Assembly (NCBI RefSeq): GCF_027214025.1
Contig: NZ_JAPWHB010000004.1
Span: forward strand, 248,001-312,000
Origin: Parahoeflea alexandrii
GTDB lineage: Bacteria; Pseudomonadota; Alphaproteobacteria; Rhizobiales; Rhizobiaceae
Length of the DNA: 64,000 bases
Direction of reading: 5' to 3'
Below the pieces are notes generated by a model. The model did not search any database, was not told the origin of the DNA, and was given only the letters and a program-made list of their open reading frames with translations. Below, in pieces: positions 7,440-56,362 of this stretch. Each line of letters begins with the position of its first letter. Positions within the stretch are counted from its first letter, which is position 1. Both the position numbers and the translations under genes were made by a program.

Positions 7440-8020
7440 ACGTGTCCGCCAGTCTCGGCCTCGTCGGCCTTTTTCATCAACAGGTCTTCAGTCTCGCGCA
7501 CGTCTTCATCGGCCTCGATCCAGGCGCCGGTGCGGATGCAGACAATGCAGCGGAACACCTGGGCAATGCCTTGGATGAACAGGAGGATACCTGCCGCCAT
7601 GATTACGGTCTTGAATTGATAGATTGGAATGCCGGCGGGACTGTTGACGCTGACTTCACCGTAGCCCCAGGAACGCGACGCATATTTCCATCCCGTCACG
7701 ATCAACGCGGTAATGCCGGGGAAGAAGAACAGCAGGTAGAGCACCAGATCCACCTTCGCCTGGGTCTGCGGGCGCCACAGGCGATAGACAAAGTCACCCC
7801 GCACATGACCGCCGCGCGACAATGTGTAGGCGCCGCCCATCATGAACAGCGACCCATACATGATAAAAGAGATGTCGAGAGCCCAGGGCGTCGGTGCATT
7901 GAAGAGGTAACGCGAGACCACTTCATAGCCCGTGCCGAAGGCCATCAGGATGATCAGCCAGGCAAATGCCTTGCCGAAAACAGCCGACAAAGTGTCGGCA
8001 AAACGGATGTATCCAATCAT
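7436..8020 (-). CDS. dctQ: TRAP transporter small permease subunit (DctQ)
   Basis: This 194-residue protein has four membrane segments, with the DctQ signature of an early helix followed by a charged loop (YEVVSRYLFNAPTPWALDIS). It partners DctM in the membrane. It lies 76 bp after dctP with a perfect 14-bp hairpin between them, the usual place for transcript processing or attenuation that keeps binding-protein levels above permease levels. Its stop overlaps the dctM start as ATGA. Confidence 0.93.
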   Translation of the reverse strand: MIGYIRFADTLSAVFGKAFAWLIILMAFGTGYEVVSRYLFNAPTPWALDISFIMYGSLFMMGGAYTLSRGGHVRGDFVYRLWRPQTQAKVDLVLYLLFFFPGITALIVTGWKYASRSWGYGEVSVNSPAGIPIYQFKTVIMAAGILLFIQGIAQVFRCIVCIRTGAWIEADEDVRETEDLLMKKADEAETGGHV

Positions 8021-8043
8021 GTTCAGCCACTTATCCCCGCCTG

Positions 8044-8075
8044 ATGATCCGGCGGAACATTTTCCGCCGGATCAT
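8044..8075 (-). terminator. Perfect 14-bp hairpin between dctP and dctQ
   Basis: ATGATCCGGCGGAA (8044-8057) pairs with TTCCGCCGGATCAT (8062-8075) around a 4-base loop, in the gap after the binding-protein gene. No U-run follows, so a partial attenuator or an RNase-stop that stabilises dctP mRNA is more likely than full termination. Confidence 0.6.
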
Positions 8076-8096
8076 GTCAGCAATTAACCGGTGAAG

Positions 8097-9233: not shown

Positions 9234-9475
9234 GACCAATCCTCCCATTTGGTTGGTATTCAAACTTTGACATATTAAATATTGGGCACTCTGCCCGATA
9301 TGGCAAGCCAATCCGTATTCATGTGCGAAATAAATGGAGCAGTGCCGATCATATGCGCCGCCTTGCACCGCCGCTTGTGTACAAAGCCTAGCCCTCCGCC
9401 CCGTATGGACGTTATAAGCAAAAAAGCGGTCGGTCTCACCGCAATACAAACCAGCCGGGGGTAAGGCGCGACAGC

Positions 9476-10858: not shown

Positions 10859-10940
10859 GAAACGACGCCGGAAACACATCGCTCTGAAAACAAAGGGGGA
10901 TTTCGGCAAGCGCCAGTGACAAGCCGTGGCCGTGTCGAGT

Positions 10941-11282
10941 TCACATCAGCCGGGCGCCGTTCGGAACCGGCGTGTCAACCGCGGCGAGAACGATATCGCC
11001 ATTGGCATCGGCAAACCCCAGCGTCAGCACTTCCGACATGAACGGACCGATCTGGCGCGGCGGGAAATTCACCACCGCCATCACCTGGCGCCCGACCAGA
11101 TCTTCAGGCGTGTAATGCACGGTGATCTGGGCCGACGACTTCTTCTCGCCGATCTCCGGCCCGAAATCGATCCTGAGCTTGTAGGCAGGCTTTCGCGCCT
11201 GTGGAAACGGCTCCGCCGCGACTATGGTGCCGGTGCGGATCTCGACCTTCTCGAAATCATCCCAGGAAATCGTCGAACTCAT
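10941..11282 (-). CDS. csaA: CsaA-type tRNA-binding domain protein
   Basis: This 113-residue protein is a free-standing OB-fold tRNA-binding domain (EMAP/Trbp111/CsaA family) that acts as a dimer and has been linked to export chaperoning in Bacillus. The N-terminal block FEKVEIRTGTIVAAEPFP and the VVNFPPRQIGPFMSEVLTLG block are typical. Its length matches CsaA. It lies 30 bp after proC on the same strand. The function in vivo is poorly defined for the family. Confidence 0.9.
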   Translation of the reverse strand: MSSTISWDDFEKVEIRTGTIVAAEPFPQARKPAYKLRIDFGPEIGEKKSSAQITVHYTPEDLVGRQVMAVVNFPPRQIGPFMSEVLTLGFADANGDIVLAAVDTPVPNGARLM

Positions 11283-11312
11283 GATCGGCTCACGTATCTT
11301 GAAAGGAGGAGA

Positions 11313-12125
11313 TCAGCCGGCCAGTTCGCGCGACCGGTCGGCGGCAGCCTTGAGCGCCTTGTCGAACACCGGCTGGATGCCGTCTTCGGCCATCAGCACC
11401 GCCAGCGCCGCGGCGGTGGTGCCGTTGGGCGAGGTGACGTTCTGCCTGAGTTGCGCTGCGCCGTCAGGGGACCGGTGCATCAGCTCCCCGGCCCCCGTGA
11501 CGGTCGCGCGTGCGAGCCGCATGGCGAGGTCCGCCGGCAGGCCGCATTTGCGCCCCGCCTCAGCCATGCACTCGACGAGATAGAAGACATAGGCCGGACC
11601 GCTGCCCGAGACTGCCGTGATTACGTCGATCAGTGCTTCATCTTCGACCCATTCGACAGGACCGCAGACCGACAGCAGCCGGTCGATCTCGGCCTTTGCT
11701 TCAGTGCTGACCGCTGCATTGGCAACCGCGCCGGTGATGCCCCGTCCGACCATGGCCGGCGTGTTGGGAATGGTGCGGACGATCGCGCCGCCGAGACGTT
11801 CCTCGAAATAGGCGATGGTCTTGCCCGCCGCGACCGACAGGCTGACGGTCCGGGGACCGACCAGTCCGGTCAGGCCTTCAATCACGGCATCCATGATCTG
11901 CGGCTTCACCGCCAGCATCAGAATGCCTGCGGTCAATCCCTGCGGTGCGGAGCTTTCCCAGCGCACCCCGGCTTCAGCCAGTCGCGCCGCCATCGCCTCG
12001 GATGGCTTTGGATCGATCACCACGATCGTGGCAGGATCGGTTCCCGCATCCAGCCAGCCGTTGAGCATGGCGCCGCCCATGTTGCCGGCGCCGACAAGGA
12101 CCAGGGGATTGGCGGGAGAAATCAT
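11313..12125 (-). CDS. proC: Pyrroline-5-carboxylate reductase
   Basis: This 270-residue cytoplasmic enzyme reduces pyrroline-5-carboxylate to proline with NAD(P)H, the last step of proline synthesis. The N-terminal dinucleotide fold has VGAGNMGGAMLNG. The catalytic C-terminal helical domain contains DVITAVSGSGPAYVFYLVE and LARATVTGAGELM. The length is normal. It begins 2 bp after the YbjN-family gene ends, so both are likely cotranscribed, followed by csaA. Confidence 0.96.
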   Translation of the reverse strand: MISPANPLVLVGAGNMGGAMLNGWLDAGTDPATIVVIDPKPSEAMAARLAEAGVRWESSAPQGLTAGILMLAVKPQIMDAVIEGLTGLVGPRTVSLSVAAGKTIAYFEERLGGAIVRTIPNTPAMVGRGITGAVANAAVSTEAKAEIDRLLSVCGPVEWVEDEALIDVITAVSGSGPAYVFYLVECMAEAGRKCGLPADLAMRLARATVTGAGELMHRSPDGAAQLRQNVTSPNGTTAAALAVLMAEDGIQPVFDKALKAAADRSRELAG

Positions 12126-12126
12126 C

Positions 12127-12627
12127 TCATGCCTCGCCGCGGGTTTCGAACATCACCGCCGTGATCGCCGACTTGGCGTCCATCCCGGACCAGACGACGA
12201 ACTGGAACGCCTGGAAATAGGCCTCGCAGGAATCGAGAGCGTTCGACAGCAGCACCTCGACCTGGCGGTTGGTCGGCTCGGCGCCGCCGGCCAGAAGCAG
12301 CGACTGGCGGAAGATGATCACATGCTCCTGCTGCCACAGGTCGAAATGGCCCATCAGCACCTGGCCGTTGACGTGCGAGAGGAGCTTCATCACCTCGGTG
12401 ACGCGAACGTCGGGAACCTTGATGTCGAAGGCGCTGGCGATATGCAGCGCCTCGCAGTCCTCCATCCAGGAAAACGAGACGTGATAATCCGTCCAGTGCC
12501 CCTCGACCGTCATCGCGATCTCGTGCTCGCCGGAGCGCTCGAACGTCCAGTCGTTGGACGCAGCCACGAACTCGATCATGTCTACCGGATTGGAGTGCCG
12601 TTCGAATTCGATATTACTGAGATTCAT
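12127..12627 (-). CDS. YbjN domain-containing protein
   Basis: This cytoplasmic protein of 166 residues matches the YbjN family (putative bacterial sensory-transduction regulators with a type III secretion chaperone-like fold). The start MNLSNIEFERHSNPVDMIEF was chosen because the longer in-frame reading adds an unlikely Trp/Arg-rich stretch. It is the first gene of a YbjN-proC-csaA unit, an arrangement I recall from other rhizobia. The molecular role is unknown. Confidence 0.82.
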   Translation of the reverse strand: MNLSNIEFERHSNPVDMIEFVAASNDWTFERSGEHEIAMTVEGHWTDYHVSFSWMEDCEALHIASAFDIKVPDVRVTEVMKLLSHVNGQVLMGHFDLWQQEHVIIFRQSLLLAGGAEPTNRQVEVLLSNALDSCEAYFQAFQFVVWSGMDAKSAITAVMFETRGEA

Positions 12628-13004
12628 GCCCCACCTAGCTTCATTTCCAGCGCCTGGTGATCCGCTCTCGCGCCATCCAGACAGCCACCTCATCCACGCA
12701 TGATTCACCCACGACCCGGGGCGTCCGCACTTGCGACTCCTGCCGGGGCAATTTGCCGCCCGTTCCGAATCATCATTTAGAATCAGTGTATAAATGCAGA
12801 GTCCGAGCGCCAGTCCCCCGGCAGCATTTTGTCAGCCGCAGCCTGTGGACCAACCTGCCAAACTGATTCCGCCATGACTCATAACCGACTCACGCAAAAG
12901 GCTTTTTGAGCCTCGCGGTCCGGTGGATAACCTGTGCAAAAAAAATTGGGTACAATCGCCGCTCAGGCGTCCCTGAACCGGAGCGCCTCGCCGGGGGACT
13001 GGTT
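12628..13004. other. Intergenic region without a convincing gene (377 bp)
   Basis: Between the YbjN gene and ubiK I find no supported coding or RNA gene. The stretch is more A+T-rich than its surroundings. It should contain the promoter for the YbjN-proC-csaA unit and the end of the ubiK transcript, with a small hairpin at 12899-12913. A single DnaA-like box (GTGGATAAC, about 12922) is not enough to suggest an origin. Confidence 0.5.
12896..12913 (-). terminator. Weak intrinsic terminator after ubiK
   Basis: On the minus strand AGGCT CAAAA AGCCT forms a 5-bp stem (12899-12913) followed by TTT. It lies about 90 bp past the ubiK stop. The stem is short, so this is tentative. Confidence 0.3.
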
Positions 13005-13280
13005 TCAGGCGTCGGAACCCTTCGACGAGCGCTTTTTCTCGAGCGCATCGAGCCGGGCGGCAAGCGCATCATTCTCTTCGCGCGCCTTGATCGCCATGTC
13101 GCGGACCGCCTCGAATTCCTCGCGCTTGACCAGATCCATCGAATTGAGAAGCCGTTCGAGCTGACTGCGCATCGCCGTTTCCATTTCCCGCCGGACGCCC
13201 TGCGCGGCACCCGCTGCATCGGTCATCAGCTTGGCAAGTTCGTCGAGAAGTCTGTTCGATCCGCTGTTCATCATCGTCAT
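13005..13280 (-). CDS. ubiK: UbiK-family accessory factor (BMFP)
   Basis: This 91-residue, largely helical protein has a C-terminal coiled coil (EENDALAARLDALEKKRSSK) and an N-terminal amphipathic segment (NRLLDELAKLMTDAAGAAQGVRRE). This is the pattern of the membrane-fusogenic BMFP proteins; UbiK members help the ubiquinone-synthesis complex in aerobic proteobacteria. A downstream ATG at 13274 is an alternative start. It is divergent from lgt. Confidence 0.85.
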   Translation of the reverse strand: MTMMNSGSNRLLDELAKLMTDAAGAAQGVRREMETAMRSQLERLLNSMDLVKREEFEAVRDMAIKAREENDALAARLDALEKKRSSKGSDA

Positions 13281-13362
13281 CCCTTTTGCGGGTTCATTCC
13301 GGCAATTGCGCGTAGGCAGTCAATCCTGAGGTAAGCGCTCCGGCAAGGACTTGCAAGCCAAA

Positions 13363-13397
13363 GCATGCGGCGCAAGGCTTGCGCAAAGCCCGCATGC
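13363..13397. repeat. Nested inverted repeat between ubiK and lgt
   Basis: GCATGCGG (13363-13370) pairs with CCGCATGC (13390-13397), and inside it GCGCAA (13370-13375) pairs with TTGCGC (13379-13384) around GGC. The element sits in the divergent ubiK/lgt spacer and could be a regulator site or RNA hairpin. Confidence 0.45.
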
Positions 13398-13507
13398 CAT
13401 GTCACAGGAGCAAGGTTTCAGGCAACACAGCACGGAAACCTGCGTTGAGGCCATAATTATGCTGGTCCGGGATTGTAGGACAGCCCCGGGAGCAGGAAGG
13501 AACCGCA

Positions 13508-14341
13508 TTGGAGCATACCGCAACGCTGTTGTCGCTGATGGCCTTCCCGGACATCGATCCGGTGATCTTCGCCATCGGCCCGGTGCAGGTGCGCTGGTAC
13601 GGGCTTGCCTATGTAGCCGGCATCCTGCTGGGCTGGCGCTACGCCCGGATGCTCGTCAGCAACGAGCGGCTCTGGCCGGCAGCAGGCCCGCGCATGACGC
13701 CGCTGGACATCGATGATTTCCTGCTCTGGGCGACCGTCGGCATCGTGGCCGGCGGACGCATCGGCTACATCCTGTTCTACGATTTTACGGCGGTGGCGGC
13801 CAATCCCGTCCGGGCGCTGGAAATCTGGAACGGCGGCATGTCGTTCCATGGCGGCCTGCTCGGAACGCTGATCGCCATGCTGCTGTTTGCCCGCAGCCGC
13901 GGCATCCCGGTCTTCAACCTGTTCGACGTCGTCTGCGCGGTCGTGCCGGTGGGGTTGTTCTTCGGACGGCTGGCCAACTTCATCAATTCCGAGCTCTGGG
14001 GCAAGCTGACCGACATGCCCTGGGCCGTTGTCTTCCCCACCGGAGGCCCGTTCCCGCGTCATCCCACGCAACTCTATGAAGCCGGTCTTGAAGGACTGCT
14101 GCTGGTGTCCGTGCTGGCCTGGCTGATCTACCGCCGCCAGGCCCTGAAACGGCCCGGCATGGTCGCGGGCTTTTTCGTCATCGGCTATGCTCTGTCCCGG
14201 ATTTTCGTCGAGTTCTTCCGGGAGCCCGACATCCAGATCGGCTATCTCGCCGGCGGCTGGCTGACCATGGGAATGGTTCTGTCGCTGCCGATGCTGGCGG
14301 TCGGCCTCTGGGCCGTCGCCACCGCCCGATCGCGCGCCTGA
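13508..14341 (+). CDS. lgt: Prolipoprotein diacylglyceryl transferase
   Basis: This 277-residue inner-membrane enzyme transfers diacylglycerol from phosphatidylglycerol to the lipobox cysteine, the first step of lipoprotein maturation. Several hydrophobic segments are present, with family motifs [12 protein letters not shown] and the signature [13 protein letters not shown]. The start is a TTG supported by AGGAAGGA seven bases upstream. The next gene begins 23 bp later, so lgt, the methyltransferase, pgeF and the M24 gene likely form one operon. Confidence 0.95.
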
Positions 14342-14364
14342 GCAAGCCCGGAAAGGTCCCCGCC

Positions 14365-15465
14365 ATGACGCCGCTCGCCGAGAAAATCGTCAACCTGATC
14401 CAGCAGACCGGCCCGCTCAAGATATCCGACTATTTCGCGCTGTGCCTGGCCGATCCGGACCATGGCTATTATCAGCGCCGCGAGCCCTTCGGCCAGTCCG
14501 GCGACTTCATCACCGCACCGGAAATCTCGCAGTTGTTCGGCGAGATGATCGGCGTGTTTCTGGTCCAGGCCTGGCAGGCGCAGGGAGCGCCGGAAAAGAC
14601 CCGCATCGTCGAGATCGGCCCGGGCCGCGGCACCCTGATGTCGGATGCGCTGCGGGTCATCGCCCGGCTTGCGCCCGATCTCTATGCGGACGCCACCATC
14701 CACATGGTCGAGACCAGCGAGCGGCTGCGCAACGTGCAGCGCCAGACCCTCGTCCGCATCAAGCAGCGGATAAGCTGGCACCATGCCGTTGAAGACCTCC
14801 CGGCCGGTTTCACCCTGATCGTCGCCAATGAACTGTTCGACGCCCTACCGATCCGCCAGTTCGTCAAGACGCCGGAAGGCTTTTGCGAGCGTGTCGTCGG
14901 GCTCGATGACGGGGGAAACCTGGCGTTCGGCCTTGCCCCGGGCGGCTTCGATACAACGCTCCTGCCGATCGAGGCGGGACGCGTCCCGAATGGCGAGGTT
15001 TTCGAGGCCTCGCCCGCCAGGTCCGCGGTCATGCAGGCCGTTGCGGCACAGATCCTGCGCGACGGCGGCACCGCGCTGACCATCGACTACGGTCATCTTG
15101 TCACCGGCTTTGGCGACACGCTGCAGGCGGTTCACCAGCATGAATTCGATCCGCCGCTGGCCCGGCCCGGCGAGGCCGACCTGACCAGCCATGTCGATTT
15201 CCAGGTTCTGGCCGAGGTCGCCAGGGAGGCCGGCGCCCATGTCCACCGGCCCATGACCCAGGGCGATTTCCTGCTCCGCCTTGGCATTCTGGAACGCGCC
15301 GGCGCGCTCGGAGCCGGGCGTGACAGTTTGACTCAGGCCACCATCAGCGATGCGGTCAACCGTCTTGCCGGAGAGGGCGAAGGTCGCATGGGAGCGCTGT
15401 TCAAGGTGCTGGCAGTCAGCGGCAAGCCGGTCGGGATCACGCCCTTTGATCCCCAGGCAGCGTAA
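14365..15465 (+). CDS. NDUFAF7/MidA-type SAM-dependent methyltransferase
   Basis: This 366-residue class I methyltransferase belongs to the family of mitochondrial NDUFAF7, which methylates an arginine of complex I subunit NDUFS2. The segments GDFITAPEISQLFGEMIG and VEIGPGRGTLMSDALR are characteristic, the second being the SAM-binding loop. The length and position after lgt are typical for alphaproteobacteria. Methylation of complex I here is inferred from the mitochondrial homologue. Confidence 0.9.
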   Translation: MTPLAEKIVNLIQQTGPLKISDYFALCLADPDHGYYQRREPFGQSGDFITAPEISQLFGEMIGVFLVQAWQAQGAPEKTRIVEIGPGRGTLMSDALRVIARLAPDLYADATIHMVETSERLRNVQRQTLVRIKQRISWHHAVEDLPAGFTLIVANELFDALPIRQFVKTPEGFCERVVGLDDGGNLAFGLAPGGFDTTLLPIEAGRVPNGEVFEASPARSAVMQAVAAQILRDGGTALTIDYGHLVTGFGDTLQAVHQHEFDPPLARPGEADLTSHVDFQVLAEVAREAGAHVHRPMTQGDFLLRLGILERAGALGAGRDSLTQATISDAVNRLAGEGEGRMGALFKVLAVSGKPVGITPFDPQAA

Positions 15466-46065: not shown

Positions 46066-46983
46066 ATGGCCCCGATCGGCCAGCTGACCCGACCGACCGA
46101 GCGGCTCGACGTCCTTGCCCGCGCCCGCCAGCGCGCGGCGCTTCTGCCCGATTGCCTGGCCGAGGCGCGGCGCGTCGCCAACACCGTGATTGCCGGCTGG
46201 CACGGCCGCCGCAAACGCGGCATCGGCGAAACCTTCTGGCAGTTCAGGCCCTATGTCGACGGTGAATCGCTCTCGCGCATCGACTGGCGCCGCTCGGCGC
46301 GCGATGACAATCTCTATGTCCGCGACCGCGAGTGGGAAGCCGCCCACACCATCTGGCTGTGGGCCGACCAGTCGCCCTCGATGCTCTACAAGTCCGACGT
46401 CGCCATCGTCTCCAAGGAGAGCCGCGCGCTGGTGCTGATGCTGGCACTGGCCGAAATCCTCTCGCGATCAGGCGAACGCATCGGCTGTCCCGGCGTCATG
46501 GAACCTGTCGCCTCCAGGAATGCCGCCGAGCGGCTGGCGCTGGCGCTGGCCCACGCCCCGGTCCAGACCAGGTTGCCCGATCTCGGTCGGATCGGCCGGA
46601 TGAGCGATGTTGTCCTGATCGGTGATTTCCTCGATGCCGACGAAACCCTGGACAACTGCATTGGTCCCGCGGCCCGGCGCGGTGTGCGCGGACATGTCAT
46701 CGAGGTCGCCGATCCAGCCGAAGAGACATTTCCCTATTCCGGACGCACCGAATTCCGCGATCCGGAAACCGGCCAGAAACTGGTCGCCGGACGCGCCGAA
46801 ACCATTGCTGCCGATTACCGCAAGGAATGGATCGCCCGCCGCGAGTCCCTGGCGCAGGGCGTGCGAAAGATGGGCTGGAGCTTTCTTGCCCACCGCACCG
46901 ACCGGCTGGCCTCCGAAGCGCTTGCCGCGGCGCACGGCCATCTGTCGGGCATTCCGGCAACCAAGAAGGCGGCATTCTCATGA
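46066..46983 (+). CDS. DUF58 protein
   Basis: This 305-residue protein has the DUF58 signature GIGETFWQFRPYVDGESLSRIDWRRSARDDNLYVRDREWE and a VWA-like segment WADQSPSM (DxSxS-like). It normally partners MoxR. No membrane segment is obvious, unlike many DUF58 proteins with an N-terminal anchor. The stop overlaps the next start as ATGA. Confidence 0.92.
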   Translation: MAPIGQLTRPTERLDVLARARQRAALLPDCLAEARRVANTVIAGWHGRRKRGIGETFWQFRPYVDGESLSRIDWRRSARDDNLYVRDREWEAAHTIWLWADQSPSMLYKSDVAIVSKESRALVLMLALAEILSRSGERIGCPGVMEPVASRNAAERLALALAHAPVQTRLPDLGRIGRMSDVVLIGDFLDADETLDNCIGPAARRGVRGHVIEVADPAEETFPYSGRTEFRDPETGQKLVAGRAETIAADYRKEWIARRESLAQGVRKMGWSFLAHRTDRLASEALAAAHGHLSGIPATKKAAFS

Positions 46984-49787
46984 TGGCAGGCCTTCCATTT
47001 GCCTTCGGCGCGCCGGCGATCCTGTTCGGGCTCCTGGCCCTGCCGGTGATCTGGTGGCTGTTACGCCTGACCCCGCCGCGCCCGCAGGCCGAACCCTTTG
47101 CGCCGCTCGCCATCCTTGCCCGCGTCCTCAAGCCCGAGGAGACCCCGTCGCGCAGCCCCTGGTGGCTGACTGCGCTGCGCCTGCTGATCGCGGCACTGAT
47201 CATCCTGGCGCTGGCCGAACCGGTGCTCAATCCGCACGACCGTGGACTGTCGTCGGACGGCCCGCTGGCGCTGGTCATCGACAATGGCTGGGCCAGCGCA
47301 CCCGACTGGGACGCACGGGTGGAGGCCGCGGAGATGCTGATCAACGAGGCCGAGGATCTCGACATCCCGGTCGCCATTGTCTTCACCGCCAACCGCCGCC
47401 ACGACGCCACGCCGGCCACTTTCGAGCGGGCGCGCGACCAGTTGCGCGCGGCCAGGCCGCAACCACTGCGCCCGGAACGAGCCGCATCCGTGACCGCACT
47501 TGTCGCGGCACTCGGCCAGACCCGCCCCGGCACCATTGCCTATGTCACCGATGGCATCGAGACAGCAGACGCCGCAGACGCTCTCAACCGCCTCTCCGCG
47601 CTCGAAGCCTCCGCTGTCCGGATCATCGGAGCAACGGAAGCCAAAGCCCTGGCGCTGACCGGGGCCGACAATGGCGCCGAAGCGCTCACCGTCACCGCGA
47701 GCCGTCTCGACGCAGCACAAGAAGAGAGCTTCGGCCTCAGAGCCAGCGACAGCAAGGGCCGCGAGATCGCGGCCGGCGAGATCCGTTTCGAGGCTGGCGC
47801 CGCGGAAGCCACCGGGACCATCTCTGCTCCCTTCGAGATCCGCAACGACATCGCCCGTCTCGACGTGACCGGGATCGACACCGCGGGCTCGGTCCGCCTG
47901 CTCGACGACAGCTTCCGCCGCCGCCGCGTGGCGCTGATCTCCGGGGAAGCCGCCGACATTGCCCAGCCGCTGCTCTCGCCGCTCTACTACATCAATCGCG
48001 CGCTCTCCCCCTATGCCGACCTGATCGAGGCCGACAGCGAGGAAATGTCCGCGTCCATCCCCAAGCTGCTGGCGCAGTCTCCGGCCGTGATCGTCATGTC
48101 CGACATCGGCACCCTGCCCGACGATGTCAGCACGTCGCTCAGTGAATGGGTCGACCGCGGCGGAACGCTGATCCGCTTCGCCGGCCCTCGCCTTGCCGCG
48201 GCTCCTGCAGACAGCAGGCTCCTGCCCGTGCTGTTGCGCAAGGGCGAACGCGAGCTCGGCGGCGCGCTCTCCTGGATCGAGCCGCAGCCGCTCGCCGACT
48301 ACCCCGCAACCGGCCCGTTTGCCGGCCTGCCGACGCCGCGTGACATCACCGTGCGCCGCCAGGTCCTCGCCGAGCCAACCTCCGATCTGGCCGCGCGCAC
48401 CTGGGCAAGCCTTGCCGACGGCACACCGCTGGTCACCGCGGCCGATCGCGGCGCGGGGCGGATCGTGCTGTTCCATGTCACCGCCGAGGCAAGCTGGTCC
48501 AACCTGCCGATCTCGGGCCACTTCGTCGACATGCTGCGCCGCGTCGTGCAGCTCTCCCGCGCCGTCGCCGGCGGCGGCGAGGCCGGATCCGGCATCCTGC
48601 CGCCCTGGCGGCTGCTCGACGCCAACGCGGCCCTGCTTCCGGCAAGCGGCGACGCCAGGCCGCTCGACCTGACCGGCGGCAAGGTGCCGGCGGCAGGCCC
48701 CGACAATCCGCCGGGCCTCTATGGCGGCGAGGACGGGTTTGTCGCGCTCAACCTGTTCAATTCCGGCGAAACCCTCGCACCGATCGCAATCCCGGAGTTC
48801 GAGGTGCCGGTCACCCGCTCGGCGATCACTGGCGACAGCGCCGTCGATTTCAGGCCCTGGCTGTTTGCAGCCGCACTGATCGCCCTGCTGGCCGATACGC
48901 TCATTGTGCTGGTGCTGAACGGCGCCTTCCGCCGCCGCGGCGTCAGGCCGTCTTCCGCGACCGCGATGATCCTGGTCGCCGGCCTTTCGCTGGCGGTGTT
49001 CGCCGCACCCGGATCCGGCCATGCCCAGGACTCCCAGCCCGGCGATGCCGATCTGCTCGAAAGCCTCGACCGGACCCGCCTCGCCTATGTCATCACCGGT
49101 GATGACGAGACCGACAACATCAGCAGGCTCGGTCTCGACAGCCTGTCGCGCTATCTCTTCAGCCGCACCGCGCTGGAACCGGGAACGGCCGTCGGCGTCG
49201 ACATCGAGACCGACCAGCTGGCACTCTATCCGCTGATCTACTGGCCGATGAGCGAGGATGCCGACATGCCGTCGCCAGGCGCCATCAGCCGCATCGACGC
49301 CTACATGAAGAGCGGCGGCACGGTGCTGTTCGACACCCGCGACCGGATCGTCGACCTCGGCGGCGGTTCAAGCGTGCTGACCCTGAGATTGCAGCAGATC
49401 CTCGCCAATCTCGACATTCCGCCGCTTGAACCCGTCCCGGCCGATCACGTGCTGACCAAGTCCTTTTTCCTGCTCGACACGTTTCCGGGCCGCTATTCCG
49501 ACGGTCCGCTCTGGGTGGAAGCCATCCCGGAGACCGACAACCCGGCAGAGCGCCCGGCGCGCACCGGCGACGGCGTGTCCTCGATCCTGATCACCGGCAA
49601 CGACATGGCCGCCGCCTGGGCCGTGGACGAGCAGGGCTTCCCGATGTTCTCGACCGTTCCGCCCGATCCCTGGCAGCGCGAATATGCCTTCCGTGCCGGC
49701 GTCAACATCGTCATGTACATGCTGACCGGCAACTACAAGGCGGACCAGGTTCACATCCCCGCCCTTCTCGAACGATTGGGGCAATGA
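46980..49787 (+). CDS. BatA-like / DUF4159 large membrane protein
   Basis: This 935-residue protein has a BatA-type N-terminus with two membrane helices (about 8-28 and 55-76), a degenerate VWA domain (LALVIDNGWASAPDWDARVEAAEMLINEA, lacking DxSxS), a middle region, a further helix pair at about 625-675 and a C-terminal DUF4159 domain (about 700-930, ALYPLIYWPMSEDADMPSP). It probably forms the scaffold of a periplasmic MoxR-linked complex. It is followed by the next gene after 1 bp. Confidence 0.88.
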   Translation: MMAGLPFAFGAPAILFGLLALPVIWWLLRLTPPRPQAEPFAPLAILARVLKPEETPSRSPWWLTALRLLIAALIILALAEPVLNPHDRGLSSDGPLALVIDNGWASAPDWDARVEAAEMLINEAEDLDIPVAIVFTANRRHDATPATFERARDQLRAARPQPLRPERAASVTALVAALGQTRPGTIAYVTDGIETADAADALNRLSALEASAVRIIGATEAKALALTGADNGAEALTVTASRLDAAQEESFGLRASDSKGREIAAGEIRFEAGAAEATGTISAPFEIRNDIARLDVTGIDTAGSVRLLDDSFRRRRVALISGEAADIAQPLLSPLYYINRALSPYADLIEADSEEMSASIPKLLAQSPAVIVMSDIGTLPDDVSTSLSEWVDRGGTLIRFAGPRLAAAPADSRLLPVLLRKGERELGGALSWIEPQPLADYPATGPFAGLPTPRDITVRRQVLAEPTSDLAARTWASLADGTPLVTAADRGAGRIVLFHVTAEASWSNLPISGHFVDMLRRVVQLSRAVAGGGEAGSGILPPWRLLDANAALLPASGDARPLDLTGGKVPAAGPDNPPGLYGGEDGFVALNLFNSGETLAPIAIPEFEVPVTRSAITGDSAVDFRPWLFAAALIALLADTLIVLVLNGAFRRRGVRPSSATAMILVAGLSLAVFAAPGSGHAQDSQPGDADLLESLDRTRLAYVITGDDETDNISRLGLDSLSRYLFSRTALEPGTAVGVDIETDQLALYPLIYWPMSEDADMPSPGAISRIDAYMKSGGTVLFDTRDRIVDLGGGSSVLTLRLQQILANLDIPPLEPVPADHVLTKSFFLLDTFPGRYSDGPLWVEAIPETDNPAERPARTGDGVSSILITGNDMAAAWAVDEQGFPMFSTVPPDPWQREYAFRAGVNIVMYMLTGNYKADQVHIPALLERLGQ

Positions 49788-49788
49788 G

Positions 49789-51852
49789 ATGAGCCTGGCG
49801 TTTGACCCGTTCCTGCCGCTGCCGGCGATCCTGGCCATTGCCCTCGTGGCGCTGTTGCTGGTCGGTTGGGCCATTGCCAAGCGGATGCGCGGAGCCGCGC
49901 TTCGCGCGCTGGCGCTCGCCGCCCTCGTGCTGGCGCTGGCCAACCCCGTCGCCAATTTCGAGGACCGTGAACCGGTCTCGAGCGTGGTCGCCATCGTTGT
50001 CGACCGCAGCCCGAGCCAGATGAATGCCGACCGCACCGCCCGCACCGACGCGGCGCTGAAGGCGCTAACCGAGCGGATCGCCCGCTACCCGGCCTTCGAA
50101 ACCCGCATCATTGAGGCCGCCACCGACCCCGACGCGCAGTCGCCCTCCACCCGCCTGTTCGAGGCGCTGGCGTCGGGCATCCGCGATGTGCCGAGTTCCC
50201 GGCTTGCCGGTGCGGTGATGATCACCGACGGGCAGGTCCACGACGTGCCCGGCTCCCTCTCCGCACTCGGTCTCGATGCACCGCTGCACGGCCTGATCGT
50301 CGGCGATGCTGACGAGCGGGACCGGCGGGTCGACATCGTCCGCAGCCCCCGCTTCGGCATCGTCGGCGAAGACCAGGAAATCGTCTACCGTGTCAGCGAG
50401 GATGGCGCCGCCTCGCCCGGCGGCCCGGTCAATGTCACCGTCCGGGTGAACGGCGAGGAGATCGCGACGGAAACTGCCAATGCCGGCGAGGAAACCCCGT
50501 TCTATCTCAACCTGCCGCGCGGCGGCGAGAACATCGTCGAGTTCTCCGTCGACGATCTGGATGGAGAAGTCACCACCGCCAACAACCACACCGTCACGCT
50601 GATCGAGGGGATTCGCGAAAACCTGCGGGTGCTGCTGGTTTCCGGCGCGCCGCATGCCGGCGAGCGCGCCTGGCGCAACCTGCTCAAGTCCGACGCTTCG
50701 GTCGATCTGGTGCATTTCACCATCCTGCGCCCGCCGGAAAAGCAGGACGGCACGCCGATCTCCGAACTCTCGCTGATCGCCTTCCCGACGCGCGAGCTGT
50801 TTGTCGAGAAGATCGACGAATTCGACCTGATCATCTTCGACCGTTACCAGAACCGTGGCGTGCTGCCGGTGCTCTATTACGACTACATCGCCCGTTATGT
50901 CGAAGATGGCGGCGCGCTTCTGGTTGCCGCGGGTCCGGAACTCTCCGGAGTGGAATCGATCGCCGAAACCCCGCTGGCGCCGGCTCTTCCGGCCATGCCG
51001 ACCGGTGCGGTAACGGACGCGGGCTACTATCCGCGGCTGTCGAACGATGGCCGGCGCCACCCGGTCACCCGCGCCCTGCCCGGCGGCCTGAACGAGCCGC
51101 CCGATTGGGGCCGCTGGTTCCGCACCGTAGGCGTTCGCGACACTGCGGGTGACGTGGTCATGCGCGGTGCCGACAACGAGCCGCTGCTGGTGCTCAACCG
51201 CTATGGCGAAGGCCGCGTGGCGATGCTCCTGTCCGATCACGGATGGCTCTGGGCGCGTGGGTTCGAAGGCGGCGGACCGCATGTCTCGCTCTACCGGCGC
51301 ATCGCCCACTGGCTGATGAAGGAGCCGTCGCTCGAGGAAGAAGCCCTGCGCGCCGCCGCCACTGGCCGCACGCTGGTGATCGAACGGCAGACCATGGGCG
51401 ACACCACCGACCCGGCCACCATCGAGCTTCCCTCGGGCGAGACCCGGGAGGTGATCCTCGCGCCGGCCGGTGACGGATTGTTCCGCTCCGAAATGGTTCT
51501 CGATCAGCCCGGCCTGGTGGAAGTCACCTCGGGCGATCTGCGCGCGCTCGCCCATGTCGGCGCTGTCGACGCACCCGAGTTCCGGGCGACCGTTTCCACC
51601 ACCGATGTGATTGCGCCGCTGTCGGCGGAAAGCGGCGGGCTGACGCGACGCGTCAATGCCACGGCCAGCGATCTGCCGCAGATCCTGCCGACGCGGTCCG
51701 CGCGCATCGATGCCGGCGAGCGCATGGGGCTGCGCGCCAGCAACGAAAGCGTGCTCAAGGGTGTGCGGTCGGTGCCGCTGTTTGGCGGGTTTCTGGGTCT
51801 TGCGCTGATGATCCTGGCGCTCGGCGCAACCTGGTTCCGCGAGGGTCGCTGA
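49789..51852 (+). CDS. VWA/glutamine-amidotransferase-like membrane protein
   Basis: This 687-residue protein has two N-terminal membrane helices (about 12-30 and 38-55), a VWA-like domain with an intact MIDAS motif VVDRSPSQM, a beta-rich section, and a large class I amidotransferase-like fold (about 280-470) lacking an obvious catalytic Cys. A C-terminal helix (about 665-682) anchors it. It is the metal-competent VWA partner in the MoxR cluster. The function is unknown; envelope stress or complex assembly are the usual suggestions. Confidence 0.85.
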   Translation: MSLAFDPFLPLPAILAIALVALLLVGWAIAKRMRGAALRALALAALVLALANPVANFEDREPVSSVVAIVVDRSPSQMNADRTARTDAALKALTERIARYPAFETRIIEAATDPDAQSPSTRLFEALASGIRDVPSSRLAGAVMITDGQVHDVPGSLSALGLDAPLHGLIVGDADERDRRVDIVRSPRFGIVGEDQEIVYRVSEDGAASPGGPVNVTVRVNGEEIATETANAGEETPFYLNLPRGGENIVEFSVDDLDGEVTTANNHTVTLIEGIRENLRVLLVSGAPHAGERAWRNLLKSDASVDLVHFTILRPPEKQDGTPISELSLIAFPTRELFVEKIDEFDLIIFDRYQNRGVLPVLYYDYIARYVEDGGALLVAAGPELSGVESIAETPLAPALPAMPTGAVTDAGYYPRLSNDGRRHPVTRALPGGLNEPPDWGRWFRTVGVRDTAGDVVMRGADNEPLLVLNRYGEGRVAMLLSDHGWLWARGFEGGGPHVSLYRRIAHWLMKEPSLEEEALRAAATGRTLVIERQTMGDTTDPATIELPSGETREVILAPAGDGLFRSEMVLDQPGLVEVTSGDLRALAHVGAVDAPEFRATVSTTDVIAPLSAESGGLTRRVNATASDLPQILPTRSARIDAGERMGLRASNESVLKGVRSVPLFGGFLGLALMILALGATWFREGR

Positions 51853-51910
51853 TCCTCGCGGCAGTTGGGTAGTCCATTTGTCTGGAGAGCTGTCAGGTGG
51901 CTAAAGTCAC

Positions 51911-53401
51911 TCAGCTTGCCTTGGAGAGCTCCTCGCCGACGAAATAGCTCATCTGGTCCTCGGCCCAGGCCTTGATGCCGTAGCGCTTGACGGTTTCGCG
52001 CAGCATCTTCATCCGTTGACGCCGCTCTTCTTCCGGCATGGCCAGCGCCTGCTCGATCGCCGTGTCCATCGACCGGTGGGAGAACGGATTGGTGATGACG
52101 GCGGACGACAGTTCGACCGCCGCGCCTGCGAATTCCGAAAGCACCAGCACCCCGTCGCCATCGGTGCGGGCCGCCGCATACTCCTTGCAGACAAGGTTCA
52201 TGCCATCGGCCAGCGGCGTGATCCAGCAGACGTCGGCCAGCTGATAATAGGCAATCAGGTCCTTGAATGGGATCGCGGTGGAAATCAGCGCCACCGGCTG
52301 CCATTCGAACGAGCCGAAGGTCCCGTTGATCCGGCCGGCGACCTGCTCGATCTCGCTCTGGATCTCCTCATAGGCCGCCATGTTGCGGTTGGCGCCGACG
52401 GAGACGTGCATGAGACGGACCTTGCCGTGCAGTTCGGGATGCGTCTGCAACAGCCGTTCGTAGCTCTCGAGCTGCTGCACCCCGCCCTTGGTGTAGTCGG
52501 TGCGTCCGACCGAGAGGATCAGCTTGCAATCTCCGAGCTCGGAGCGGATGGCGACGGCGCTCTCACGGGTCTCCTCGCAAGCGGCGCGTTCCTGGATGTA
52601 ATCCCAGTCGATGCCCACCGGCGCGCTGGAAATCCGGATTTCGCGTCCCTGGTACATCACCGCCTCGGGAACGCGCCGGTCCGACAGGGCCGTACCCTCC
52701 CAGACAAAATCGGGGTTCACGTCCTTCCGCTTTACCGGCCCGACTTCGAGCAGGCTTTGCGCGACATGGACAAAATTGACCGCATAGCGCGGGACGTGGA
52801 ATCCAACCACGTCGCAGGCAAGCAGGCTGTCGACGATCTCGCGACGCCAGGGCAAAACGTTGAACATGTCGGCGGCGGGGAAAGGGGTGTGGTGGAAGAA
52901 GGAGATCTTCACATCGGGTCTGAGTTTCCTCAGGTATCCGGGCACCAGCCACAGATTGTAGTCGTGCACCCAGACCACGGCGCCGGGCGCGGCCTCCGCG
53001 GCGGCGGCCTCGGCGAAGGCCCAGTTGACTTCACGAAAGGTCGGCCAGTCGACCGGGTCGTAATTGTAGCGTTCCTTGAACGAATGCAGGATCGGCCAGA
53101 ACGCTTCCTTCGAGGTGACATGGTAGAAGCTCGACACCTGGTCCGGCGTCAGCGGCAGCCGGGTGACCGAGTACTTGCCGTAGCTGTCCTCGATCTCGAT
53201 GACGCGTTCGAAATCCGGGTTGGCAGCGTCGTCGGCCAGCTTCCAGGCGACCCATGCGCCCTTTTCAACCCGCCCGAAAAACCCCTTCAGCGTCGGGACG
53301 ATGCCGTTCGGGCTTTTGTTTTCTCTGAAAACGATCTTTCCGTTTTCTTCGACTTCCTCGTAGGGTTGGCGGTGATAAACGATGACAAGATCGCTGGCCA
53401 T
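51911..53401 (-). CDS. ggpS: Glucosylglycerol-phosphate synthase
   Basis: This 496-residue GT-B glycosyltransferase of the GT20 family joins ADP-glucose and glycerol 3-phosphate to glucosylglycerol phosphate, a step in compatible-solute synthesis. The N-terminus LVIVYHRQPYEEVEENGKIV followed by SPNGIVPTLKGFF closely resembles cyanobacterial GgpS and not OtsA (which begins LVVVSNRV-like). Other blocks are FFHHTPFPAADMFNVLPW, SVGRTDYTKG and PLADGMNLVCKEY. It starts 4 bp after the HAD phosphatase gene, itself coupled to gpsA. Trehalose-phosphate synthase is the alternative; the gene context favours GgpS. Confidence 0.88.
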   Translation of the reverse strand: MASDLVIVYHRQPYEEVEENGKIVFRENKSPNGIVPTLKGFFGRVEKGAWVAWKLADDAANPDFERVIEIEDSYGKYSVTRLPLTPDQVSSFYHVTSKEAFWPILHSFKERYNYDPVDWPTFREVNWAFAEAAAAEAAPGAVVWVHDYNLWLVPGYLRKLRPDVKISFFHHTPFPAADMFNVLPWRREIVDSLLACDVVGFHVPRYAVNFVHVAQSLLEVGPVKRKDVNPDFVWEGTALSDRRVPEAVMYQGREIRISSAPVGIDWDYIQERAACEETRESAVAIRSELGDCKLILSVGRTDYTKGGVQQLESYERLLQTHPELHGKVRLMHVSVGANRNMAAYEEIQSEIEQVAGRINGTFGSFEWQPVALISTAIPFKDLIAYYQLADVCWITPLADGMNLVCKEYAAARTDGDGVLVLSEFAGAAVELSSAVITNPFSHRSMDTAIEQALAMPEEERRQRMKMLRETVKRYGIKAWAEDQMSYFVGEELSKAS

Positions 53402-53405
53402 GTAG

Positions 53406-54200
53406 TCAGTATCCTTTTGGTAGATCGTGCATATCGAACGCACGAATAGCCTCCAGTATGCCCGCCGCGCCATGCGCCTGCGCCATATGAAGGTGCTCGA
53501 GATGATGAACGCGCTCGACGAGAGAAGGTTCCGAATTCCCCACCGCGACGGCCGGCAGGCCGCATTCGAGCATGGAAAGATCGTTGAGCGTGTCGCCGGC
53601 GCACAGAACCCGGCCCGGATCGAGCTCCAGGTAATCCACCAGCCTCCTGAGCGACGGTCCCTTGCTCACGCCATCGGGCAGCACATCGAAGAACCGGTTG
53701 TCGGAAATCAGCCATTGGTGCCCCATCTCCTCGACGATCGAACAGGCGGACCGGTCGAACGTCTCGTGGTCGAGATCGTAGCTGACGCGGTAGCGGAAAT
53801 CGGTCGGCTGCAGCCTCAGCCCCGGGTGGCCGTCGAGCCTGGAGCGGACGTTCTCGCCCGCGTCGTCCCAGCGCGCCGCGATCTCCTCTTCGAGATGCAG
53901 GATCGGCGCCACGCCGTCCGAGGGCGACACCGTGGCGATCGTCGTTCCCACGTCGCCCACCGCATATTCGGGCCAGGGCACGCCATTGCTCGAACACAGC
54001 TCGCCGATGAATTCCGGGTCGCGGCCGGTGACGAAGATCAGGCCCACGGTCTCGCGATTGGCCTCGATCCAGTCGTAGAGCTTCCGGCGATCCTCGTCGC
54101 TCCCGCCCAGGAAGGTTCCGTCGAGATCGGTCGCCAGCACGAATTGCCGGTCCTTCAGAGCTGCCGGTTTCGGGGCCGCCTCGGGCGCTTGAATGGTCAT
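53406..54200 (-). CDS. HAD phosphatase, probable glucosylglycerol-phosphate phosphatase
   Basis: This 264-residue protein of the Cof/sucrose-phosphatase HAD branch has motif I ATDLDGTFLGG, motif II FVTGRD, a Lys in DGVSKGPSLRRL and motif IV CAGDTLNDLSML. Its cap domain sits between motifs II and III. It overlaps the gpsA stop as ATGA and is followed 4 bp later by ggpS, so it most likely removes phosphate from glucosylglycerol phosphate. It is not related in sequence to the cyanobacterial GgpP (StpA) by eye. Function is inferred from context. Confidence 0.85.
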   Translation of the reverse strand: MTIQAPEAAPKPAALKDRQFVLATDLDGTFLGGSDEDRRKLYDWIEANRETVGLIFVTGRDPEFIGELCSSNGVPWPEYAVGDVGTTIATVSPSDGVAPILHLEEEIAARWDDAGENVRSRLDGHPGLRLQPTDFRYRVSYDLDHETFDRSACSIVEEMGHQWLISDNRFFDVLPDGVSKGPSLRRLVDYLELDPGRVLCAGDTLNDLSMLECGLPAVAVGNSEPSLVERVHHLEHLHMAQAHGAAGILEAIRAFDMHDLPKGY

Positions 54201-55324
54201 TGGGTCGTCTCCGTTGCCATGGCGATCGGGTGGTCGATGGAAATCGCCAAACCGCGCCGTTCGCCCTGGATCGGGCGCGACCAGTACTCGGCGAAGGTTT
54301 CGCGCACATCCGCGCCCTGGTGCAAGATCCGGTACACGCACTCGCAGATCGGCATGTGGATGTTCATCCGTCGCGCCAGGTCCATCACCGACAGCGAGTT
54401 CACTTCACCTTCCACCACCACGGGCTTGCCGTCGAAGCACCGGTCGCGGGGAATGCCTTTGCCGAGCTGCACGCCGAGCGACATGTTGCGCGATGTCTGC
54501 GATGAGCAGGTCAAGGTCAGATCCCCGGCGCCGGCAAGGCCGGTGACCGTCTCGCGGCGGCCGCCGAACACGTCGGCAAGCGTCTTGATCTCGTCCATGC
54601 CGCGCACGATCAGCGCCGCCCGTGTGTTCTCGGCATATCCCGCGCCCGTCATCATGCCACAGGCAATCGCAATCACGTTCTTGACCGCGCCGCTCACTTC
54701 CACCCCGACCAGATCGTCGGATATGTAGGGCCGGAAGTAATCAGACCCCATCGAAAGCGCCAGCCTGGCTGCCGGGCTGGAAGCCATGTCCAGCCTGTCG
54801 GCATAGGAAAACGGAAACGCGATCGTCGCCGCGGTCAGGTGGCCGAGCGCCGTCTCGGTGGCGAATGTCGGCCCTGAGAGAGCCCCGATCTGGTGGCCCG
54901 GCAGCATCTCCGACGCCACCTCGCTGAGCAGATATCCGGTCCCCGCCTCGATCCCCTTGGCGCAAAGCGCGATCGGCACGCCCTCACCGAGATGCGGGCG
55001 CATCTGTGTGCAGATATCCCGCAAGGTCCGCGACGGTGTGACCAGCAGAACCGCTTCCGCACCGGCCAGTGCCTCGGCCATGTTGGTGGTCGCGCGGATC
55101 CCCTCCGGCAGATCGATACCGGGAAGGTAGCGGGGATTTTCATTGCGGTCGTTGATTGCGTCGATCGTCGCCCGGTCCCGTCCCCAGATCGCCGTCTTGC
55201 GGCCGGCGCGGCGCGCCACGGAGGCCAGTGCGGTCCCCCAGGATCCGGCACCGATGACGCAGATTTTCGCGTAGGGACGTGCGGGAGAAGACAGGTCGTC
55301 GGCTTTTTGGCCTAGATAAGTCAT
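54197..55324 (-). CDS. gpsA: NAD(P)-dependent glycerol-3-phosphate dehydrogenase
   Basis: This 375-residue enzyme reduces dihydroxyacetone phosphate to glycerol 3-phosphate. Motifs are IGAGSWGTALA (dinucleotide fold), CAKGIEAGTG, SGPTFATE and the catalytic-Lys segment VSGAVKNVIAIACG. It is about 40 residues longer than typical GpsA, with extensions at both ends. First gene of gpsA-HAD-ggpS, where it would supply the acceptor for GgpS. No ribosome site precedes the ATG, and a promoter would start transcription at or near the ATG, so translation may be leaderless. Whether another gpsA exists for lipids is not visible here. Confidence 0.95.
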   Translation of the reverse strand: MTYLGQKADDLSSPARPYAKICVIGAGSWGTALASVARRAGRKTAIWGRDRATIDAINDRNENPRYLPGIDLPEGIRATTNMAEALAGAEAVLLVTPSRTLRDICTQMRPHLGEGVPIALCAKGIEAGTGYLLSEVASEMLPGHQIGALSGPTFATETALGHLTAATIAFPFSYADRLDMASSPAARLALSMGSDYFRPYISDDLVGVEVSGAVKNVIAIACGMMTGAGYAENTRAALIVRGMDEIKTLADVFGGRRETVTGLAGAGDLTLTCSSQTSRNMSLGVQLGKGIPRDRCFDGKPVVVEGEVNSLSVMDLARRMNIHMPICECVYRILHQGADVRETFAEYWSRPIQGERRGLAISIDHPIAMATETTQ

Positions 55325-55331
55325 GTGGCTC

Positions 55332-55360
55332 TATCTAGGCCATCCCGCGCCGCACCGCAA
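55332..55360 (-). promoter_or_regulatory. Promoter of the gpsA-HAD-ggpS operon, possibly leaderless
   Basis: On the minus strand TTGCGG (55355-55360) and TAGATA (55332-55337) are spaced by 17 bp. The -10 ends 7 bp before the gpsA ATG, so transcription would begin at or next to the start codon. Confidence 0.45.
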
Positions 55361-55434
55361 CCTTTCAGATGCTGCGGCGCAACAGAAAAGTTCTGAAACC
55401 GACATGAGCTATCCAGTTATCGCCATGCAAATTC

Positions 55435-55451
55435 GCCCCCGTCTCGGGGGC
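55435..55451 (-). terminator. GC hairpin after the GNAT-ACT unit
   Basis: GCCCCCG (55435-55441) pairs with CGGGGGC (55445-55451) around TCT, immediately past the ACT stop codon. The U-run is weak (GAATTT on the minus strand). Confidence 0.5.
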
Positions 55452-55453
55452 TT

Positions 55454-55839
55454 TCACGCCACGAACCTGTGCCCACGCGCCTCCAGCAGCGCCATCGATT
55501 TCGCCATATCCGGCTCCGCGACCAGCAAATGCTCGCCATCATAGGTGCAAACCACGAACACCCCGATGCCGGCATCGGATAGCGGCGCGATCAGCGAACT
55601 GACGATTCCCGTCGCATCGAAGGCAAACGGCCCGATGGTTCGCAGACACAGCCAGTCGCGGCTCGATTGAGCCCCGTCCGGGATCCGCTCCTGCAGGCAG
55701 ACGATGGTGATTTCGTCCTCCGCCCGGATGACCGCCCAGAACCCGCCGCCGCCGGCCCAGTCCGGAATTGCCGCGTCCGGCGCAAGACGCGCGATGCCGT
55801 GCGGCCGGGCACACGCTGCAACCGAAGCGACAGCTCCAT
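55454..55839 (-). pseudogene. ACT-domain protein gene with a frameshift
   Basis: From the ATG at 55839 the frame reads MELSLRLQRVPGR, then becomes Arg-rich nonsense. One frame over, a clear ACT-domain protein continues (HGIARLAPDAAIPDWAGGGG, FWAVIRAEDEITIVCL, FDATGIVSSLIAPL, GIGVFVVCTYDGEHLLV) to the stop at 55454, but that frame has no start codon before it. A single missing base near 55800 explains both. The gene would encode about 128 residues with two ACT-like halves, as in CASTOR-type proteins. It starts 4 bp past the GNAT gene. Either real decay or a sequence error. Confidence 0.75.
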
Positions 55840-55843
55840 GCGA

Positions 55844-56362
55844 CTACCCTGCCTGCGGCATCCGGCCGATGTGCCGGATTTCGCCTTCGAGCGCCATTGC
55901 ATCGACATCGCCGAGACAGGCCGCCAGAAGCCGGTGCGGGTCGAACGGCCCGGGCATCGTCAGCGCGCCGGGCTTGGTCGGCTTGAATCCGAGCGGCAGA
56001 TAATAGGGTGGATCCCCGACCAGCAGCACGACCGGGCTGCCGGCCTTCTTCGCGGCAGCCAGCGCAATACGCACCAGCTCGCGGCCGATCCCGAGATTCT
56101 TGTGCGACGGCCGGACCGCGAGCGGCCCCAGCAGATAGCCGGCCACCGTGCCGGCAAGGATCGGTGTCATCCGAACCGAAGCGATCACTTCACCCCGGTC
56201 GGCGGCGACGAACGAAAGCCTCCGGTCATGCGGCCCCTGCTCCCGCACCCTTTCGGACGAGCGGACAAAGCGACCGGGACCGAATGCTTCTTCGTTGATA
56301 TGGTTGATGGCCGCGTCATGAGACGCGTCTTCGGTCAGAAAGACAAGATCGTGGATGGACAT
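55844..56362 (-). CDS. GNAT-family N-acetyltransferase
   Basis: This 172-residue protein has the acetyl-CoA-binding pattern LGPLAVRPSHKNLGIGRELVRIALAAAKKAG (motif A, with the Arg/Gly loop degenerate as NLGIG), followed by VVLLVGDPPYYLPLGFKP. It matches the YhbS-like acetyltransferases. It is cotranscribed with the frameshifted ACT gene. The substrate is unknown. Confidence 0.9.
   Translation of the reverse strand: MSIHDLVFLTEDASHDAAINHINEEAFGPGRFVRSSERVREQGPHDRRLSFVAADRGEVIASVRMTPILAGTVAGYLLGPLAVRPSHKNLGIGRELVRIALAAAKKAGSPVVLLVGDPPYYLPLGFKPTKPGALTMPGPFDPHRLLAACLGDVDAMALEGEIRHIGRMPQAG

Follow-up and report, generated by a model that had tools for sequence, protein, structure and literature searches.

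A conserved gpsA-HAD phosphatase-ggpS operon of Parahoeflea alexandrii and its very likely role in glucosylglycerol biosynthesis

Introduction

Glucosylglycerol (GG) is mostly discussed as a solute of cyanobacteria, with a few further cases in heterotrophs that carry fusion enzymes. The present analysis concerns a compact operon of three genes, gpsA, a HAD phosphatase gene and ggpS, on the minus strand of a 64,000-nucleotide stretch of the Parahoeflea alexandrii genome (contig NZ_JAPWHB010000004.1, positions 248,001 to 312,000), referred to below as the window. The conserved operon is real, GG is very likely its product, and the whole is read from its sequence, with a probability of about 0.83, as a three-gene alphaproteobacterial form of the known pathway of GG biosynthesis.

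Three described systems stand closest to this locus. The cyanobacterial pathway of ggpS, ggpP and gghA has the same GgpS equivalog and shares the GHL5 family with some alphaproteobacterial loci, and a published figure places gpsA in the vicinity of ggpS and gghA for some cyanobacteria (PMC6753628). When the two are compared through protein models and descriptions, the window differs in having a phosphatase that does not match TIGR02399, the model of cyanobacterial GgpP, and in the tight packing of gpsA, phosphatase and synthase genes. The fused GgpPS of Stenotrophomonas, Pseudomonas, Azotobacter and Marinobacter resembles the operon in placing an S6PP-type phosphatase before a GT20 GgpS (PMC10873239). 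It is a single protein, whereas the window encodes two proteins with gpsA ahead of them; the fused enzymes of six loci from the same phylum are 37-44% identical to the window in the HAD part and 45-47% in the GgpS part, and no gpsA match lies beside these fused genes in the stretches examined (L109-L114). The third system, the trehalose pathway of OtsA and OtsB, has the GT20 family and the catalytic core in common with the window GgpS, and OtsB, which performs its second step, is likewise a HAD-type phosphatase.

An operon of this kind in many marine alphaproteobacteria, compact and provided with its own precursor enzyme, would make GG commoner in the sea. It would also provide Hoeflea with a solute made de novo; in the available portion of a survey of phototroph genomes, Hoeflea phototrophica is credited with choline-dependent betaine synthesis only and ggpS is unmentioned (PMC7824335). 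The operon would in addition be a natural three-gene cassette for GG production, in agreement with the finding that the supply of glycerol 3-phosphate limits yield (PMC8168540).

Identity of the glycosyltransferase

The last gene of the operon, ggpS (51911-53401, minus strand), is defined by its open frame and its match to TIGR02398 and encodes a GT20 glucosylglycerol-phosphate synthase of 496 residues; a longer open reading frame call (520 residues, start at 53473) begins at an ATG inside the HAD gene. The protein scores 672 bits on the GgpS model TIGR02398, above the cut-off of 569, and 416.7 bits on the OtsA model TIGR02400, below the cut-off of 564.85. An alignment of 19 GgpS proteins (from the window, other alphaproteobacterial loci and the fused enzymes) and 10 OtsA proteins has 34 diagnostic columns, each at least 90% conserved in either group and different between them, and in every one of these 34 the window protein agrees with GgpS. 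The aligned rows were picked by their model matches, so that these columns repeat the model scores at the level of residues. Both the comparison of the two profiles and the diagnostic columns thus bear out the preliminary description, which had taken the enzyme for GgpS and not OtsA.

In an alternative reading the GT20 protein is OtsA, the HAD protein is a trehalose-phosphate phosphatase and gpsA is a passenger. OtsA models do cover the protein over almost its full length (417 bits), its closest solved structures are trehalose-phosphate synthases, and it is the sole GT20 found in its own genome. However, the model scores together with the diagnostic columns speak against OtsA and led to the rejection of this identity, the HAD protein is of the S6PP type, and gpsA stands beside the HAD gene in 72 of 80 loci. 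Three of the seven family-level genomes with GgpS (G046, G058 and G101) contain another protein that matches OtsA better, and in one of these genomes it exceeds the OtsA cut-off. The trehalose reading is very improbable.

Arrangement and distribution of the operon

The genes are transcribed on the minus strand in the order gpsA, HAD, ggpS. The first (54197-55324), recognized by its open frame and family models, encodes a GpsA paralogue of 375 residues, an NAD(P)H-dependent glycerol-3-phosphate dehydrogenase, and the second (53406-54200), recognized by its open frame and PF05116, encodes an S6PP-type HAD phosphatase of 264 residues, the proposed glucosylglycerol-phosphate phosphatase. The stop codon of gpsA and the HAD start codon share the bases ATGA (54200-54197), giving a 4-bp overlap, and the HAD stop codon, which ends at 53406, is followed by four bases and then the ggpS ATG at 53401; HAD and GgpS are two separate polypeptides with no GgpPS fusion. 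These coordinates, read from the sequence, agree with the set of three genes, overlapping or 4 bp apart, that had been noted at the outset.

Among the genomes scanned, GgpS proteins above the cut-off occur in 7 of 151 at the family level, in 16 of 387 at the class level and in 15 of 397 at the phylum level, the window's own genome being counted in each. A scan of contigs gave 483 GgpS relatives, of which the best 80 were analysed, so the counts over 80 loci describe close relatives. Within these best 80 of 483, the closest named loci belong to Hoeflea, with GgpS 92-94% identical to that of the window, and one locus labelled Alphaproteobacteria bacterium reaches 95%. Another genome of the same genus as the window genome (G139) has ggpS as well.

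The HAD gene adjoins ggpS in all 80 closest loci and gpsA adjoins the HAD gene in 72, and because the arrangement is found again in these 72 loci it exceeds chance. The spacing is also conserved: 44 of the 70 gpsA-HAD junctions measured are 4-base overlaps, 68 of the 70 lie between -4 and 4 bases, and the gap from HAD to ggpS lies between -11 and 40 bp in 76 of 80 loci, with two of the gaps (L021 and L050) being script outliers. The same three genes occur in 17 more class-level loci (L094-L107 and L116-L118), L108 being interrupted by a contig end, and on two annotated Rhodobacterales plasmids. The preliminary description regarded the bundling of gpsA and a HAD phosphatase with ggpS as a distinct version of the pathway. 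This does not hold as stated, as most of the closest loci share the layout and gpsA near ggpS and gghA has already been drawn for cyanobacteria; a layout confined to this genome was likewise dismissed, the bundle being widespread in alphaproteobacteria. No alphaproteobacterial operon of this composition is named among the literature matches listed, which came mainly from outside subscription journals, and the three-gene set is a widespread, little-described variant of a known pathway. In one locus (L095, 829-3318) the GgpS frame is extended C-terminally by about 120 residues, with a CPSCG motif.

The HAD phosphatase

The second protein of the operon scores 146 bits on PF05116 (S6PP) and is an S6PP-type HAD-IIB phosphatase. 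Its closest solved relative is the sucrose-phosphatase of Synechocystis (1s2o, E 9.9e-16), and the residues D25, D27, K180, G202, D203, N206 and D207 are invariant in all 105 aligned rows. The broad model of the HAD-IIB subfamily is the only one in NCBIfam whose cut-off it reaches, and TIGR02399 is not among its 17 NCBIfam matches with E up to 0.001; a search of the whole genome with TIGR02399 also gave no match, with controls that gave no signal either. The identity of the HAD protein to the N-terminal domain of fused GgpPS is 41-44% for five loci (L109-L113) and 37% for a sixth (L114), all six being from another class of the same phylum and three from one genus. Pfam finds PF05116 together with PF00982 in three of these fused proteins (L109, L112 and L113), and in L119, the seventh genome of this kind, ggpS is accompanied by no more than a partial HAD match. 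An unlikeness to cyanobacterial GgpP had been claimed for this phosphatase; it holds as far as the model match is concerned, but the protein is no new type, being by sequence a homologue of the GgpPS phosphatase domain, a known proteobacterial kind. The idea of a novel phosphatase type was dismissed for this reason, and an action on GG-phosphate is proposed for the HAD protein.

Relatives of the HAD protein with 34-38% identity are also encoded on the actinomycete plasmids NZ_CP108785, NZ_CP108290, NZ_CP108712, NZ_CP081497 and NZ_CP108701. A plasmid search with GgpS (limit 1e-80) has no actinomycete among the matches listed.

The proposed pathway

In the proposed pathway, GpsA would convert dihydroxyacetone phosphate to glycerol 3-phosphate, GgpS would glucosylate the glycerol 3-phosphate with a nucleotide sugar as donor, ADP-glucose being the most likely one, and the S6PP-type HAD protein would cleave off the phosphate to give free GG, a compatible solute with a presumed role in salt tolerance. 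The dedicated GpsA would boost a precursor otherwise shared with membrane lipids. A search of the same genome for ectoine synthase found no match, and its controls gave no signal either.

Three points weigh against this reading. A galU-like neighbour, found at part of the loci, would fit UDP-glucose as the glucose donor there. The dedicated GpsA seems helpful rather than essential, because 8 of the 80 closest loci are without gpsA beside the HAD gene, two of them being Hoeflea loci with remnants of it. Finally, the candidate promoter in Hoeflea has boxes like those of the regulator PhaR and no osmotic signal known to us.

The fate of the product also has to be considered. Glucosylglycerol units are found in lipids and glycans, and GG-phosphate or GG, rather than remaining a free solute, could be built into a surface glycan or a glycolipid. 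However, the constant company of the phosphatase gene and ggpS in all 80 loci, their fusion elsewhere, and the GHL5 genes that 7 of 98 neighbourhood loci have close to the operon all fit a pool of free GG, and the use of GG for such glycans or lipids is very improbable.

The operon copy and the solo copy of gpsA

The window GpsA scores 360 bits on NF000942 (cut-off 257) and has both PF01210 and PF07479. The genome to which the operon belongs measures 5.5 Mb and holds one GT20 gene, two gpsA genes, one glgC over its cut-off and one galU over its cut-off. The second gpsA is on another contig (G000:C68:80064-80468) and is 38% identical to the operon copy. That the operon gene is a paralogue, as first supposed, is confirmed by this unlinked solo gpsA and by the distinct position of the operon copy in the GpsA tree. 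The tree is unrooted. It contains all 44 solo rows and, of 92 operon rows, 47, namely every fourth of those in L011-L090 that a distance rule had classed as operon rows, and all others; nine rows with an over-long HAD reading frame escaped that rule and were classed as operon rows by their gene neighbourhoods. A single branch separates all its operon copies from the solo ones, with support of 99/87 and recovery in 100% of 200 bootstraps.

Within the tree, the Hoeflea operon GpsA falls in a group of 31 rows (100/99), mostly Rhodobacterales, where its exact neighbours are weakly supported (92/42), and the Hoeflea solo GpsA clusters with its own family (99/99). This placement of the operon GpsA among Rhodobacterales and of the solo GpsA among its own family suggests that the operon came to Hoeflea by transfer.

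The number of gpsA genes varies among the 33 genomes with ggpS, nine having two and 24 having one. In 14 of the 23 genomes with gpsA beside the HAD gene, from seven families, no gpsA exists besides the operon copy; there the operon GpsA must also supply lipid synthesis, unless glycerol kinase does. The opposite state is seen at L014 (from about 4110) and at L017 (from about 4005), two loci of Hoeflea where HAD and ggpS are kept and gpsA is reduced to a remnant of its start before the HAD gene. Both retain a PhaR-like box, and this naturally occurring loss of the operon's own dehydrogenase is new in this analysis. In an engineered cyanobacterium the supply of glycerol 3-phosphate limits GG, and an extra dehydrogenase raised GG by 26-42% (PMC8168540).

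The glucose donor and neighbouring genes

The donor is most likely ADP-glucose, which would be supplied by the single glgC over its cut-off, a gene of the same genome unlinked to the operon. The label of a self-contained pathway was therefore an overstatement, as ADP-glucose would come from a glgC located elsewhere. The same pathway with the same product might instead use UDP-glucose in these alphaproteobacteria. In 34 of 98 loci a divergent galU-like gene stands at a distance of 0.26-0.97 kb from the operon (33 of the 34 are distinct, since L049 and L131 are one locus that is included both among these 98 loci and among the 94 upstream regions discussed below); this speaks for such a donor, as does the fact that UDP-glucose is the usual donor of OtsA, a GT20 relative (PMC6004087). 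Against it stand the requirement of Synechocystis GgpS for ADP-glucose, without use of UDP-glucose (PMC6004087), the presence of glgC, the distance of about 270 kb between the operon and the one galU over its cut-off in the window's own genome, and the score of the galU-like neighbour in L036 (1701-2786), whose 260 bits are under the cut-off of 326.8. A UDP-glucose-dependent form of the pathway is thus unlikely.

GHL5 genes are located 0.25-3.2 kb from the operon in seven of the 98 loci (L040, L045, L068, L080, L081, L126 and L132), and that of L126 matches PF14872 with 812 bits. Slr1670 of Synechocystis, which is required for GG hydrolysis, is of the GHL5 type, and alphaproteobacterial homologues of it were noted earlier (PMC5002435); the location of GHL5 genes near the operon is a new observation here. 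Another seven of the 98 loci have a divergent GH13 gene 0.2-1.5 kb from the operon. Neither GHL5 nor GH13 genes were seen in the remaining loci, where the flanking sequence extended no further than 5-8 kb and was shorter still at some contig ends.

In the window, the operon looks like a unit of three genes because a convergent gene lies downstream and 129 bp separate it from an open stretch upstream; read-through from upstream is possible. Two large plus-strand genes (46827-51852) are downstream of the operon and convergent with it, and their relatives adjoin the operon in Hoeflea loci; the second of them (49789-51852) has no Pfam or NCBIfam match at the limits applied. The upstream neighbour on the same strand is a GNAT acetyltransferase gene. 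Its frame continues past its stop codon as an open stretch from 55454 to about 55844 (minus strand), which ends 129 bp ahead of the gpsA ATG. This stretch is absent from the list of open reading frames of at least 80 residues, and may be either a broken gene or one whose start is unusual.

The upstream region and possible regulation

A candidate promoter of the operon, proposed from reading by eye, spans 55332-55360 on the minus strand and consists of a -35-like TTGCGG (55360-55355) and a -10-like TAGATA (55337-55332) separated by 17 nt; a scan of 51700-55900 with the sigma-70 consensus found no promoter. When the upstream regions of Hoeflea are aligned, TTGC and TAnnTA are conserved, and the conserved columns are mostly in TGC-rich palindromes and TAnnTA, the conservation being due in part to descent because the rows are related. 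Two YGCRNYGCR cores 22 bp apart (55351-55381, minus strand), recognized by motif match, are candidate sites of PhaR (AniA), the sensor of polyhydroxybutyrate (PHB). They are TGCGCCGCA (55381-55373) and TGCGGTGCG (55359-55351), the downstream one overlapping the -35-like hexamer. The core is identical to that of the PhaR motif of Sinorhizobium meliloti, where phaP1 and phaP2 have two copies flanking the -35 element (PMC12542648). In the 64-kb window the spaced pair occurs once, with a mean of 0.13 in shuffled sequences and at least one occurrence in 13 of 100 shuffles, for a pattern that was picked after the site had been seen.

The same element recurs in the close relatives. Seven of the nine Hoeflea-like rows with gpsA have the pair of cores and the other two (L011 and L018) have a single core. 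TGCRNYGCA occurs within 150 bp upstream of the operon in 10 of 11 Hoeflea-like regions (the window, nine Hoeflea records and L011; shuffle mean 0.4) and upstream of ggpS in none of the 11. In the other 83 regions it is found upstream of the operon in 12 (shuffle mean 2.4, maximum 7) and upstream of ggpS in four. These boxes in the Hoeflea promoter, whose match to the PhaR site is new here, hint at a control by PHB status.

A more specific proposal, which we hold tentatively, is that the Hoeflea operon belongs to the PhaR regulon, that the solute is paced with carbon storage, and that this control was rewired after arrival from Rhodobacterales-like donors. If so, PhaR bound to its boxes, one of which is over the -35 region, would repress the operon until PHB granules titrate PhaR away, and the compatible solute would follow carbon storage rather than salt alone. 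Some of the Rhodobacterales-like donors appear to use control by a stress sigma factor instead, so that the rewiring would have come after transfer. A further step would be to regard GG as chiefly a metabolite linked to carbon storage under PhaR, and not mainly as a salt osmolyte. This gains from the boxes at the Hoeflea candidate promoter and from the PhaR targets reached through the motif in S. meliloti, which include phasin, exopolysaccharide and central carbon genes (PMC12542648). The enrichment of the core is modest outside Hoeflea, however, and some other alphaproteobacteria have a stress-sigma-like motif in its place; a primary role in carbon storage is unlikely.

The stress-sigma-like motif is GGAAC-N16-17-CGTT, which we take to be the consensus of the general-stress (EcfG) motif. 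Among the 94 upstream regions scanned it is missing from the window and from all Hoeflea loci and is present in 13 (shuffle mean 0.3, maximum 2; antisense 2). On plasmid pDSHI02 of Dinoroseobacter shibae (L222, region 6074-14400) the operon is near genes for a sensor kinase, a sigma factor, a NepR anti-sigma factor and a response regulator, a cluster that resembles a general stress response set.

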